Part shown: one piece after another, positions 30,646-46,767 of the stretch
How the letters are laid out: each line of letters starts with the position of its first letter
How positions within the stretch are numbered: the first letter of the stretch is position 1
Assembly (NCBI GenBank): GCA_027309085.1
Contig: DAIDDL010000033.1
Coordinates: 1 to 46,820 of the forward strand
Reading direction: 5' to 3'
Length of the DNA: 46,820 bases
DNA from: Sulfobacillus sp.
GTDB lineage: Bacteria > Bacillota > Sulfobacillia > Sulfobacillales > Sulfobacillaceae
Notes under the pieces: generated by a model
Seen by the model: the letters and a program-made list of their open reading frames with translations, nothing else
Told to the model about the DNA's origin: nothing
Database searches by the model: none
Translations under genes and position numbers: made by a program

Positions 30646-32416
30646 ATGCATACGGAATCTGCTCATATTGAGGGAAGAGCTGTCTCGGATTGGCGGACTC
30701 ATTTGGCGGTCCGGCTCATACGTCCCAATGAACGGGATCGGTGGCGGACGTTGATGGCCGCGCATCACTATTTAGGATTCCGCGGCTTGGTGGGCGAAGC
30801 CCTGTATTATGTCGCCTGTCTCGACGACGAGTGGGTCGCTCTCCTCGGATGGACTGCGGCCGCGTGGATGTGTCGGCCGCGCGATCAATGGATCGGATGG
30901 ACTCGCGCTCAGCAATGGGCGCGCCTGCGCTTCGTGGTCAACAACGCTCGCTTTCTAATCTTACCGGGCGTGCATGTGCCCAACCTCGCCTCTAAAACCC
31001 TGGCGCTCAATACTCGACGTTTGGCCACGGATTGGCAGGCGGTGTATGGACATCCCGTCGTGCTGGCCGAAACCTTTGTCGATCCGGCGCGCTTTGCTGG
31101 CACGGCTTACCGCGCCGCGGGATGGCAGTATCTGGGGCAAACCCAAGGGTTTGCCCGCCAATCCCACCATTATGTGTACCACGGCCACCCGAAAGCCCTC
31201 TGGGTCCGCCCGTTGCGCGCGGGCAGTCCTCAGGGTCTGACGGCGCCGCTTCTCCCCCCCACATTACAAGGAGGTGCTCTCACCTTGGTGGATTTTAACG
31301 CCCTGAATTGGGTCGGCCCGGGCGGCCTGCGCGACCGCCTGCACGCGCTCATCGACCCGCGCCATCGGCGCGGGATCCGGCATTCCGTCACCCAAGTGCT
31401 GGTGTTAGCTTTAGCCGCTGTCGTCGCCGGCCAACGCAGCTTTATCGCCATCGGCGACTGGATTCACGATCTGAGCCCGGAACAACGGGCCCTGTTCGGG
31501 TGCCCCCGCTGGGGCCAGACCTTCAAAGTACCCAGTGAGCCGACCGTGCGCCGGGTGCTGCAAAGAATGGATGCCGATGCCTTGGATATGGTGCTGAATC
31601 AGTGGCTCACTGCAGAAGAAGTGCGGGTGGGCGATGCCATCGCCATCGATGGCAAAAGTCTCAGGGGTTCGGCGCACGGCCATCGTAAGCGGCCGGTACA
31701 CCTCTTGTCCGGGTTAGTGCATCGCACGGGGCAAGTGATCGGTCAAGTCGATGTGGACATCAAAACGAACGAGATTCCTAAACTGAAAGATCTGCTCGAG
31801 CCCCTCGACATTGCGGGGGCCATTGTCACCGTCGATGCCCTTCATACGCAAACGGAAACTGCCCGCTACCTGGTGGAGGACAAACAGGCCCATTATGTCA
31901 TGGAAGTGAAAATGAACCAACTTACTCTCTATAAAACCCTGGAGGCTCTCGACCTCGAGGATTTTTCCCCCTCCCGTCCAAACGGACGATAGAGGCCACG
32001 GCCGCATGGAAACGCGTACGGTCCGCACCGCGGCGGTACCCAAGTCTGTCACCTGGCCTCATGCGGGCCAAGTGTTTCGCATTGATCGCCACGTCACGGA
32101 CCTCCCCGGGGAGAATCCCCGGGATGAAACGGCCTACGGTATCATCGATCTGGGCCCCCAAGTCGCCGATGCGACACGCATCGACACGCTCGTGCGCGGC
32201 CATTGGGGCATTGAAACGCGTCTGCATTACGTCCGCGACATGACCTACGATGAGGACCGCTCACAAGTGCGTACCGGGAATGGACCGCGCGCGATGGCCA
32301 TCCTGCGCAATACCGCCACTGGGCTACTCCGGCGTCTGCAGTTACCCAACATTCAACGGGCTGTCAATCACTTACAGCGCCGACCGGACCAGGTGGCCAC
32401 GCTCCTCTTGAGCTGA
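30646..32416 (+). pseudogene. DruA-domain/ISAs1 transposase fusion, frameshifted
   Basis: The first frame (30646-31992, 448 residues) begins with a DUF4338/DruA-like domain of about 200 residues (ERDRWRTLMAAHHYLGFRG, LPGVHVPNLASKTLA, VLAETFVDPARFAGTAYRAAGW). A standard ISAs1 transposase follows (RRGIRHSVTQVLVLAL, IAIDGKSLRGS, and a following VTVDALHTQTETA). The second frame (to 32416) continues it with RIDTLVRGHWGIETRLHYVRD. The shift is near 31965-31980 in a run of five T then five C residues. Correcting one base restores GHGRMETRTV. DruA domains attached to ISAs1 transposases are known. The gene is probably dead unless the shift is an error or programmed. Confidence 0.88.
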
Positions 32417-32577: not shown

Positions 32578-32877
32578 CGTTACCTTTGGACCGCCCCGGT
32601 CTATGAATGTGCCCAGTGTCACCATCAAACCTCGGTCACCGCTGGGACGCTCTTTCATCGCACCAAAGTGGCCTTGCGCCTCTGGTTTATGGCGATCTTC
32701 ATGGTTGGGGTCGATAAAGGCGGCAAGTCGGCCCTCGCGTTAAGCCGTGAATTAGGCCTGTCCTATGTGACGGTCTTGGTGTTGCATCATAAAATTCAGC
32801 ACGCCATGGCGGAATCAGCCACGGGCCCGGCAAGCAAGGCCGGGGCACGGACCAAGATCCGGTCATCGTGGGCGTGA
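32578..32877 (+). pseudogene. IS1595-family transposase fragment
   Basis: About 100 codons of an IS1595-type transposase: a zinc-binding CAQCHHQTSVTAGTLFH, then the family's KVALRLWFMAIF and LGLSYVTVLVLHHKI segments. The frame stops at 32877. In another frame the following bases (to about 32912) read DPVIVGVSLDAKGHQ, a continuation after an internal deletion and shift. The MITE-like repeat begins there, so the rest of the catalytic domain is gone. Confidence 0.8.
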
Positions 32878-32911
32878 GTCTTGATGCGAAGGGACACCAG
32901 CGCCTATGTCT

Positions 32912-33068
32912 TTCATGCATCCCCAGATAAGTCAGGTGGGACCCTTCTAATGGAGAACATAGAGTAAAACTGGTGGCTACAGCGCTCCGAACGGGCGGTA
33001 ATTCTTCGGAATTTCGCGAGAAGTGCGGTGCGTTTCCCTGCTGCCTGACTTATCTGGGGATGCATGAA
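32912..33068. mobile_element. MITE-like palindromic repeat, copy 1
   Basis: A 157-base unit with perfect 25-base terminal inverted repeats beginning TTCATGCATCCCCAGATAAG. A second copy at 45610-45763 differs at about 7 positions. It has no coding capacity. An inner CCGAA/TTCGG pair adds structure. It sits at the broken end of the IS1595 fragment. Confidence 0.88.
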
Positions 33069-33547
33069 GTTTTTTCCCGCTCTTTGCACCGCGTCCAACA
33101 AGGCCCCCCTGCACAGTTTAAATCCGGCCGTGGTCCCGAATGTCGTAAAACTGGATCAGGTATGATTTTTCCATCAATCCATCAGGTGTCTGATAAGAAG
33201 GAGTTGCACGTTGCACACGACATACGACAAGCTCTCGTTCTGAAGGCGATAATCTTGGAAGAGGGCGGTCTCGCATGGATGGATGCGTCTTCCAATCTTT
33301 CTTGTTCTTGTGGTGTCGATTTCTCAATAACGTAAGTGACGAACCCGGTGGTCCCGTCTTTATCCATTCAGGTCAGGGGCTCGGCTACCATGATAGAACA
33401 GCGCCGCAGGCCAACAAGCGGCGCTGTTCTATGTTTGCTTCCAGCCGGGTGCTGGGCCCCCGCAGATGGGGGCTCAGCAAGTCAGCCGTGGGTACGATCT
33501 GCTGGGGTATGATACCCGGATTCCGCTGACCACACATGAACCGGCAT
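33069..33547. other. Gene-free interval
   Basis: I find no supported gene. Short minus-strand ORFs (33118-33327 and 33182-33367) lack ribosome binding sites and could be pieces of one decayed gene, since both overlap in different frames. The interval ends with the strong hairpin at 33393-33432. Confidence 0.5.
33393..33432. terminator. Perfect 15-bp hairpin, terminator-like
   Basis: ATAGAACAGCGCCGC (33393-33407) pairs exactly with 33418-33432 around a 10-base loop. The + strand continues GTTTGCTT, and on the minus strand there is no T run. It could end transcription from either side. It lies 115 bases after the pabBC stop on that gene's strand. Confidence 0.55.
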
Positions 33548-39504: not shown

Positions 39505-39533
39505 TTGCTAAAAATGCGCAGGCAGGGCATAGT
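39505..39533 (+). promoter_or_regulatory. Candidate thi operon promoter
   Basis: TTGCTA (39505-39510) and CATAGT (39528-39533) are 17 bases apart, placing the transcription start at the first base of the TPP aptamer. Confidence 0.45.
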
Positions 39534-39539
39534 GGTCTT

Positions 39540-39624
39540 AACGGGAGCTCGGGGAACTGGGCTGAGAGGGTGGATTACCGCCACCGACCGTAAAACCTGA
39601 TCTGGATAATGCCAGCGGAGGGAA
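39540..39624 (+). promoter_or_regulatory. TPP riboswitch (THI element) of the thi operon
   Basis: The conserved aptamer pieces are in order: ACGGGAGCTCGGGG, GGGCTGAGAGGG, then ACCTGATCTGGATAATGCC followed by AGCGGAGGGA. The last two are almost exactly the classical thi-box sequences. The expression platform is in 39625-39721, ending at the GAGGAGG ribosome binding site of thiC. TPP should repress the whole thiC-thiO operon. Confidence 0.95.
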
Positions 39625-39709
39625 AATATGATTATAATAGTCCCCATCATTTCTCCTTTTTGCCACCTGTTCCATCAGGAATTCGGTCCTCCCGTCTATT
39701 GCGATCTGA

Positions 39710-43953: not shown

Positions 43954-45543
43954 ATGATCTTGGCGGATACAACCGTGGATGTGCTCATCGTGGGCGGCGG
44001 AGTGATTGGCTGTGCTCTGGCCTATGACCTTGCGGCAGCGGGGATTGGTGTGAAACTGTTGGAACGGGATACGGTGGGAGCCGGAACATCCTATGGTGCC
44101 GGCGGCATGTTGGCACCGCAAATTGAATTCTCCGAAGGCGGCCTGGGCTTGGAGTGGGGGTTGCGATCTCTCGCTTTATACCGAGAATGGGATCACACTA
44201 TCTGTGATCGTATCGGACTCGGATTGGATCTGGATCTTTCCGGGGTAGTGCGGGCCACGGAAGGAGGACCAGATGAATTAGGAGCGTTGGCCGCCCGCCA
44301 AGTCCAGATGGGGCACGTGGCCCGATTGCTGGATGGTCCGGGCATTCGCGATTGGGCACCCGGAATTAATTCCGAGGCGCAATTCGGACTCTGGGTGCCT
44401 GGGGGACAGGTGGACGCATGGCGGGCCACCCGGGTCTTGGCTCAAGCCGCGGCCAGCCAGGGGGCGATGATCCATACCGGTGTGACGGTTACCGGTTTAG
44501 AGGACGGAGCCGTGCTGACTTCTATGGGGCGCTTGGAAGCACAGTACATTATTGTGGCCGCCGGTGCGTGGATTCCTCATCTCTTGGATTTGCCCTTGCG
44601 GCCGGTAAAGGGGCAGCGCCTTTTGGTCGAACTGCCTCAATTGCTGGCGCGGGCGCCGATTTTTGGAGACAGTGTCTATGTCGTGCCCAAGGCGGGCGGA
44701 CGCTATTTTTTGGGGGCGACCGAAGAATCTGATGGAGGCTATGACCGTCGGGCGACCTTGGCGGGGTTGACAGCAGTGGGAGCGGCAGCTGAGCGATTAT
44801 TTCCCAAACTCGCTCAGGCAGAAGTGGTCGAGCAATGGGCTGGTCTTCGGCCTGTATTTCCCGATGGCTTGCCGATGATTGCGCCTGCCCCTCAGTATGA
44901 CCGAGTGCTGGTAGTGGGCGGACATTACCGGCACGGCTTTCTTCTTGCACCGGTCACGGCGCGCGCGGTGCGGGATTGGATGATCAAGGGAACTCCCTTG
45001 CCCTCCGATTTTTCTTACAATCGGTTTGACCAGGCTGAGAAGGCTGTGACTGAACCGCCAAAGAAAGACGCGCCAGTATCTGCTGTAAGTGTCTCAACGG
45101 CTGCCGATGTGTTGCGGGGAGAAGTCACGATTGCGGCCGATCCTGCTGTAGTCTACCGAGTCTTTTGCGATCCTACTCATTATCCTCGACTGATGCCGGA
45201 TGTCCAGCAAGTGGAGGTAGTGAAGGCGGAATCAGCCTATCGCATTGTTCAGTGGACAGTCCACTATTTCGGTCAACGGATTGAGTGGACGGAACGACAA
45301 ACATGGGATGGGCGGGAGAGTCTAGAAGGGGATCTGCTTGCGAGCAATTTCTTTGAACATTATCGCTATTGTGGCCGTGTGACTCGCGACCCTATCGGCA
45401 GCATAGTCACCATCGAAGTAGAAATGACGTCCCGGCGTCGGGGACTGGTGCTGGCAGCTGCCCGGAAAATATTAGCGCAAAACCTTCAAGCTTTTTTGCA
45501 TGCACTGAGACAAGAATTGGAAGCCGTGGCTAGAGAGTCCTGA
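43954..45543 (+). CDS. thiO: Glycine oxidase ThiO fused to an SRPBCC/START-like domain
   Basis: A 529-residue protein. Residues about 1-357 are ThiO, a flavoenzyme oxidising glycine to the imine used by ThiG: FAD motif LIVGGGVIGCALAYDLA, then GAGTSYGAGGMLAP, and GLRPVFPDGLPMIAP with HYRHGFLLAP near the end. A proline- and alanine-rich linker (about 358-383) joins a second domain of about 145 residues (EVTIAADPAVVYRVFCDPTHYPRLM, later FEHYRY and VEMTSRRRG). That domain has the pattern of the SRPBCC/Coq10-START fold, a hydrophobic-ligand pocket. ThiO is usually about 370 residues. The ATG at 43954 is 5 bases from AAAGGGGG; the adjacent ATG at 43951 is too near. Confidence 0.88.
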   Translation: MILADTTVDVLIVGGGVIGCALAYDLAAAGIGVKLLERDTVGAGTSYGAGGMLAPQIEFSEGGLGLEWGLRSLALYREWDHTICDRIGLGLDLDLSGVVRATEGGPDELGALAARQVQMGHVARLLDGPGIRDWAPGINSEAQFGLWVPGGQVDAWRATRVLAQAAASQGAMIHTGVTVTGLEDGAVLTSMGRLEAQYIIVAAGAWIPHLLDLPLRPVKGQRLLVELPQLLARAPIFGDSVYVVPKAGGRYFLGATEESDGGYDRRATLAGLTAVGAAAERLFPKLAQAEVVEQWAGLRPVFPDGLPMIAPAPQYDRVLVVGGHYRHGFLLAPVTARAVRDWMIKGTPLPSDFSYNRFDQAEKAVTEPPKKDAPVSAVSVSTAADVLRGEVTIAADPAVVYRVFCDPTHYPRLMPDVQQVEVVKAESAYRIVQWTVHYFGQRIEWTERQTWDGRESLEGDLLASNFFEHYRYCGRVTRDPIGSIVTIEVEMTSRRRGLVLAAARKILAQNLQAFLHALRQELEAVARES

Positions 45544-45609: not shown

Positions 45610-45763
45610 CATGCATCCCTAGATAAGTCAGGTGGGACCCTTCCAATGGAGGACATAGAGTTAAAACTGGTGGCTACAGCGCTCCGAACGGGCGGTAATT
45701 CTTCGGAAATTCACGAGAAGTGCGGTGCGTTTTCCTGCTGCCTGACTTATCTGGGGATGCATG
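45610..45763. mobile_element. MITE-like palindromic repeat, copy 2
   Basis: A 154-base second copy of the unit at 32912-33068, about 95% identical by eye, with the same terminal inverted repeats (CATGCATCCCTAGATAAGTC at the left, one mismatch). The ORF that crosses it has no coding character in copy 1, so it is not a gene. It separates the thi operon from the WGR cluster and ends 5 bases from the WGR gene stop. Confidence 0.88.
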
Positions 45764-45768
45764 ATTTT

Positions 45769-45999
45769 TTAACCCTGATACCCGCGCCGTTCCTTGCGGT
45801 GGCGCTGGTGGGACGCCGCGTGTAACGCGGCGTCTAACGTCCCTTCGCACAATAGCTGCCGCCCACGAGAGCGCTGACCGATCCGGCCCCACGTGGCCCA
45901 GCATTCCCATGTGCCCCACAATGTGGGCTGGAGGCTGATGGTATACCACCGAAAGGCGTTGTGCGCGGGATCAAGGCGCGTGCCGGTCCACCACGGCAT
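45769..45999 (-). CDS. Small WGR-domain protein
   Basis: A 76-residue protein that is almost entirely a WGR domain: FRWYTISLQPTLWGTWECWATWGRIGQ with the defining Trp-Gly-Arg, then a basic stretch. WGR domains occur in poly(ADP-ribose) polymerases and in MolR-like and other bacterial proteins, and are thought to bind nucleic acid. The ATG at 45999 has AAGGAGGG just upstream, and the start overlaps the preceding gene by 29 bases. Its 3' end abuts the MITE-like repeat, so the last codons may have changed on insertion. Confidence 0.75.
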   Translation of the reverse strand: MPWWTGTRLDPAHNAFRWYTISLQPTLWGTWECWATWGRIGQRSRGRQLLCEGTLDAALHAASHQRHRKERRGYQG

Positions 46000-46177
46000 G
46001 CCGCCCTCCTTCCTGCGGCTGAAGGGCCGCGGAGCACGCCTGGGCGATGCGCCACCAGACCCAGCGGGAGGCACCGGAGGCTGCGTCCAGTTGATCGAGG
46101 CAGACCCGGAGCAATTCGTCCGCGTCTTCGGTCCGCAAGCGGACAGAGACCGCAGGCAGAGGCGGCCGCCGGCTCAT
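45971..46177 (-). CDS. Small protein of unknown function
   Basis: A 68-residue protein, MSRRPPLPAVSVRLRTEDADELLR at its start, mostly helical, with no membrane segment. I recognise no family. The ATG at 46177 overlaps the TGA of the upstream gene (TGATG) and has GGAGG 7 bases upstream, so it is co-translated with both neighbours. The tail is rich in His and Arg. Confidence 0.65.
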   Translation of the reverse strand: MSRRPPLPAVSVRLRTEDADELLRVCLDQLDAASGASRWVWWRIAQACSAALQPQEGGRHAVVDRHAP

Positions 46178-46767
46178 CAGGGGGCCTCCGTGGTGTCTGC
46201 CGGGGCGTCGTCGCCTTCCGGTCGTGCGTCGGGCGTCTCTGCATCCCGCACCTGCCAAACGATCTCACTCCACGCCCGATCCGATTGTCCCCAAACGGTA
46301 CAGACCGTGAGCCAAAAGGCCCGGTCCGGTAGATCAACGCCGGGCCAGGCACACACCGCTTGCAGATAGTCGGCCTGGTCGGCGCGCGATTGCGTCGGAA
46401 AGATGGTGGCAATCTGATCAGCCCATGCGGCGAGAATCGTCGGGTCACAACGCCGGGTCTGCATGCCGTGGCTCAGGGTTTGCCAGAGGGGCCGCCAGGG
46501 ACTGGTGGGATCGCGCTGGGCGTGCCAGAGAGCGGGGGCCGGAATCCAGCGGCCCGTGGTAGGCGGCGCGGTCTCGGAGACTTGGGGACCGAGTGCCGCC
46601 GTGTACTGCGCAAAGAGGGTGTCGGCATCGGGAATGGCTCGGAGGCACAGACGATCTGGCGTCAGAAGCGTCGTGAGGAGTAACTGGCCTTCGGTCCAGT
46701 CGAGTGTGGCCCGATCCGTTTGTGGCACGGTGAGGGCGCCACGTTTCTGTAGAGTGGTCAAGGGCAT
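46177..46767 (-). CDS. Protein of unknown function, first gene of the WGR cluster
   Basis: A 196-residue acidic, tryptophan-rich soluble protein that I do not recognise. The ATG at 46767 has AAAGGA upstream. It has no signal peptide, membrane segment or catalytic motif that I can see. It ends in a low-complexity acidic tail. It leads a three-gene unit with stop-start overlaps. The unit is separated from the thi operon by a mobile repeat, so it may be accessory DNA. Confidence 0.65.
   Translation of the reverse strand: MPLTTLQKRGALTVPQTDRATLDWTEGQLLLTTLLTPDRLCLRAIPDADTLFAQYTAALGPQVSETAPPTTGRWIPAPALWHAQRDPTSPWRPLWQTLSHGMQTRRCDPTILAAWADQIATIFPTQSRADQADYLQAVCAWPGVDLPDRAFWLTVCTVWGQSDRAWSEIVWQVRDAETPDARPEGDDAPADTTEAP

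Follow-up and report, generated by a model that had tools for sequence, protein, structure and literature searches.

A miniature inverted-repeat element with IS1595-type ends, probably a non-autonomous IS1595 derivative, in Sulfobacillus and its relatives

The window, which here means the whole analysed stretch of 46,820 nucleotides of a Sulfobacillus contig, contains two copies of a short repeat. Copy 1 (153 bp, 32914-33066, plus strand) is bounded by a 23-bp terminal inverted repeat (TIR) at 32914-32936 on the plus strand and by its perfect complement at 33044-33066 on the minus strand. Copy 2 (154 bp, 45610-45763, plus strand) starts 66 bp 3' of an open reading frame ending at 45543 and has its TIRs at 45610-45632 (plus strand) and 45741-45763 (minus strand), with one mismatch between them. 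The original prediction of two copies of about 155 bp and about 95% identity was thus accurate, the measured identity being 95.5%. It had also announced perfect 25-bp inverted repeats. These repeats exist and are perfect in copy 1, but they are 23 bp long, since the target-site duplications (TSDs) of other copies place the border at CATG, and copy 2 is mismatched once; the figure of 25 bp came from counting an extra TT/AA at copy 1, which belongs to the flank. Allowing up to three mismatches, we counted four occurrences of the end sequence CCTGACTTATCTGGGGATGCATG in the window, where shuffled sequences gave an expectation of 0.00. No transposase-like open reading frame lies inside the 153-154-bp element. 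A terminator role was also considered and set aside, a scan having returned one weak internal site against a mean of 0.6 in shuffled sequences.

The left edge of copy 1 is abutted by a 330-bp remnant of an IS1595-family transposase gene (32584-32913, plus strand). On the other side, the right flank (33067-33225, plus strand) resembles a locus on another contig, C5, of the same genome. Further upstream, a predicted 448-aa protein (30646-31989) combines a DruA (PF14236) region at its N-terminus with a DDE_Tnp_1 transposase of the ISAs1 type; the remainder of the C-terminal part continues in another frame at 32006-32413. A TPP riboswitch (RF00059) is found at 39531-39640, upstream of a thiC-like gene.

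We analyzed the distribution of the element in its own genome (4.49 Mb, 172 contigs, 99% complete) and beyond. Six near-full copies are present in this genome, namely the two of the window and those at C44:12310, C100:14894, C92:31094 and C82:66461. They are accompanied by a copy with a decayed right end (C44:7362), by several shorter remnants (C87, C120, C44:14191, C124) and by numerous solitary hits to the end sequence, several of which are part of insertion sequence (IS) copies. The flanks differ from copy to copy, so that these are dispersed single elements and not pieces of one duplicated segment; neither of the two conditions set for refuting the original prediction, a lack of further copies or a larger duplicated segment, thus applies. 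Among the 61 genomes searched, 16 contain matches, and the near-full ones belong to relatives of the same bacterial family, with many copies in related genera. Where the exact end sequence was found on named contigs, these come from metagenome-assembled genomes (MAGs) of Bacillota or Clostridiales. The plasmid collection searched with the element gave no match.

Target duplications were then evaluated on 24 curated copies. Perfect 8-bp TSDs flank eight of them and a 7/8 match flanks three more; a perfect 8-bp match would arise by chance with a probability of about 1e-5 to 1e-4 for each copy. Three of the perfect TSDs are in the own genome, at the copies C44a (TAGCAATA), C100 (AAAAACAA) and C92 (TCCCGAGA), and the other five are in relatives. 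In the case of C100, an alignment with an empty site could be obtained: the orthologous region of the congener G004 lacks the element and reads CCTTTGTTTTTTTGC, to be compared with the joined flanks of C100, CCTTTG-TTTTTTGC, in a joined-flank local alignment. No empty site was obtained for copy 2, as nothing in the genus matches its left flank. Its right flank (45781-46270) has a paralogue of 75% identity on contig C2 and a relative of 68% identity in G003, the similarity starting in both at least 13 bp from the element. In G021, a genome of another genus, a 588-bp IS1595 derivative on contig C256 (L142:1274-1861), flanked by the TSD TCTCAGTT, harbours a nested copy of the element, itself with a perfect TSD, TGAATAAA.

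The absence of a transposase gene, the shared TIRs, the dispersed copies, the 8-bp TSDs and the empty orthologous site altogether identify the repeat as a miniature inverted-repeat transposable element (MITE), as the original prediction had proposed. One could nevertheless assume that the repeats are host-derived functional hairpins, such as a regulatory RNA, a terminator or a REP-like sequence, spread by some means other than transposition. The predicted fold of the element is indeed a hairpin of very high stability (-77.2 kcal/mol, z -7.7), and copy 2 sits shortly 3' of a gene and is followed by T6. However, this stability is a direct consequence of the 23-bp inverted repeats, and the Rfam search of the region returned nothing at the element and only the TPP riboswitch elsewhere. 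Host hairpins would also fit poorly with 8-bp TSDs, an empty site, diverse insertion sites and ends of the IS1595 type, and we consider this explanation very improbable.

The ends of the MITE lead to its parent family. Positions 1-44 align to the left end of an IS, with 82% identity to the IS copies of C92 and C102, and positions 122-153 align to the last 32 bp of the IS, the right 30-32 bp being 87-90% identical; the two matches stand in the same order as the IS ends. The IS of contig C77 is 1201 bp long, has TIRs that differ from those of the MITE at 2 and 1 positions and is flanked by the TSD TTTCCGTT. Its transposase gene is frame-broken and matches the Pfam families PF12760 (zinc ribbon) and PF12762 (DDE_Tnp_IS1595). 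The IS copies of C102 and C162 contain one exact MITE end sequence each, which in C102 lies upstream of the transposase gene. The search for a full IS with the same type of ends led to relatives, where intact transposases of 298, 304 and 337 aa with both Pfam domains are encoded by related IS of G006, G005 and G013. These intact IS show 2-4 TIR mismatches to the MITE ends, and that of G006 has both ends present and the TSD CTTGGAAA. In the own genome, no complete and uninterrupted parent transposase gene is assembled, all IS copies there being either broken or truncated at contig borders. An IS left end, identical in the two cases (72/72), is interrupted in this way at the end of C82 and at the start of C11, the C11 piece having a frame break as well, and an open right half is interrupted likewise at the end of C118. 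A repeated IS would be expected to give this pattern when the assembly is fragmented, and a complete copy could therefore be hidden at these contig ends.

The remnant next to copy 1 belongs to the same parent family. It displays 88% amino-acid identity over aa 52-128 (tblastn) and, at the DNA level, about 97% identity to the C102 IS over 226 bp and, further on, 87% identity to the C77 IS over 107 bp. The original prediction had the parent transposase missing from the window, but a remnant of the parent family is present. As for the middle of the MITE (~75 bp), an origin by internal deletion of the IS is not clearly supported by the sequence comparison: the match between MITE 53-81 and IS 201-230 is marginal, with a best score of 17 against a shuffle maximum of 15.5, and it was obtained with the window copies' subfamily but not with the other.

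The target sites provide a further link between MITE and IS. From 19 insertions with clear duplications, three of them full-size IS and the rest MITEs or other small derivatives, we derived the palindromic consensus CA-[TWNNNAAA]-TG, in which the bracketed 8 bp are the duplicated part. With correction for 144 tests, seven of the eight favoured columns lie under 0.035, and the outermost left C does not reach this level on its own. Restricting the set to sites with exact duplications may have biased it towards A/T-rich octamers, though this would leave the outer CA and TG unaffected. This preference is common to MITE and IS, which supports the action of one type of transposase. Mobilization by a transposase of another family, sharing the terminal sequence by coincidence, might be considered because the own genome has no assembled complete IS1595 parent. 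It would have to account for a match that extends beyond the TIR (over 44 and 30 bp, arranged as in the IS), for the same 8-bp TSD and for the same target consensus, and it seems to us hardly credible.

We thus propose, with a probability of roughly 94%, that the element is a non-autonomous miniature derivative of an IS1595-family IS, moved by an IS1595 transposase made elsewhere. It would have kept about 44 bp of the left and about 30 bp of the right IS end, including the 23-bp TIR, and it has no transposase gene. An IS1595 transposase with zinc-ribbon and ISXO2-like DDE domains, supplied from elsewhere, would bind the TIRs and move the 153-bp element into palindromic CA-TWNNNAAA-TG sites with duplication of 8 bp. 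We infer this mobilization in trans from the shared ends, the TSD length and the target preference.

The two window copies themselves are less simple. Neither has a clear TSD, the flanking octamers agreeing at 6/8 positions for copy 1 and 5/8 for copy 2, levels that A/T-rich sites would reach fortuitously at rates of about 1.5% and 7%. Their present positions may therefore reflect later rearrangement. Copy 1 had been described as lying on a broken IS1595 gene. The IS1595 remnant does adjoin its left side, but the right side is not IS sequence: similarity to C5 begins at the first base after the element, at a locus that has no MITE and a different left neighbour. Copy 1 consequently sits at a joint of two unrelated sequences, which could have been produced either by a decayed insertion with a deletion next to it or by two MITE copies having recombined. 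A hint of the latter process comes from G021, where the flanking octamers are TCTCCGAA and TTCCGTTA for the copy of G021_C5 and TTCCGTTA and TCACCGAA for that of G021_C128 (L032/L101, L048/L098). Such swapped TSD halves are the pattern of a reciprocal exchange between MITE copies; G021 being a MAG whose contigs bear k141_ names, a chimera is a possible alternative.

That the window copies owe their positions to recombination or adjacent deletion after insertion, and are not two untouched insertions, is compatible with their transposon nature. The unclear TSDs, the joint at copy 1 and the swapped TSD halves in G021 speak for it. On the other hand, the 6/8 agreement could be a decayed TSD, and each copy has private differences, the two being 96% alike as are other independent insertions. 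We give this possibility a little less than an even chance. Whichever process operated, recombination between copies, adjacent deletion or decay, the window copies would have lost their TSDs after insertion. The recent movement that had been proposed from their high identity is reasonable for the C44 and C100 copies, which are 99% identical and have perfect TSDs, but the window copies have no clear TSD to support it. As they may mark rearrangement joints, the local gene order should not be taken as ancestral.

Two MITE subfamilies coexist. The two window copies, C44a and C100 share about 96-99% mutual identity. The C92 copy is 88-89% identical to its siblings in the same genome, versus 95-96% to two copies of G021. 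The core gene thiC is only 74-76% identical between congeners, and no DNA match to it was found in G021. The C92 copy being closer to the G021 copies while thiC is far more divergent, horizontal transfer between genera is favoured; the sequences suggest such a transfer, in a tree with few well supported branches. A wider and tentative picture, which we regard as possible but less likely than not, would be that of an IS1595 MITE family with a palindromic CA-N8-TG target that spreads horizontally between genera of the same bacterial family and whose copies act as recombination points rejoining genome segments, as at copy 1 and in the G021 pair.

Named subgroups of the IS1595 family include ISPna2, ISNwi1 and ISNha5, among others. 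The parent IS resembles the zinc-ribbon groups of this family in its size of about 1.2 kb, its PF12760 and PF12762 domains and its 8-bp TSD, whereas the MITE lacks the transposase that these groups carry. Members of the family usually generate 8-bp TSDs and have an N-terminal zinc finger, except for the IS1016 group (PMC8101967). Within the latter, ISApl4 prefers A/T-rich 8-bp targets (PMC12561309). The A/T-rich 8-bp duplications are as observed here, but ISApl4 is 712 bp long with a 14-bp TIR, and the CA...TG palindromic target is a feature of the MITE family of the window. A parallel can also be drawn with Haloquadratum walsbyi, in which an IS1595 MITE of 165 bp with an IR of 25, a DR of 8, 7 copies and the partner ISHwa6 has been published (PMC3852290). 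Judged from this description, the two are alike in size, IR, 8-bp DR and IS1595 partner; the hosts differ, that one being archaeal. The element therefore belongs to an already known kind, the IS1595 MITEs, of which it is a new example. In the literature searched, the archaeal example was the only IS1595 MITE, and for one in Bacillota the present analysis provides the ends, the family of the parent, the preferred target and the distribution. Finally, a sister MITE family was observed in G001, G030 and G032, with elements of 153-159 bp (L051:1378-1530, L052:567-719 and L108:3270-3428), unequal ends such as CATACATGATCGGTTAAGTCAGG and CCTGACTTATCTGGGGATGTATG, and 8-bp TSDs.
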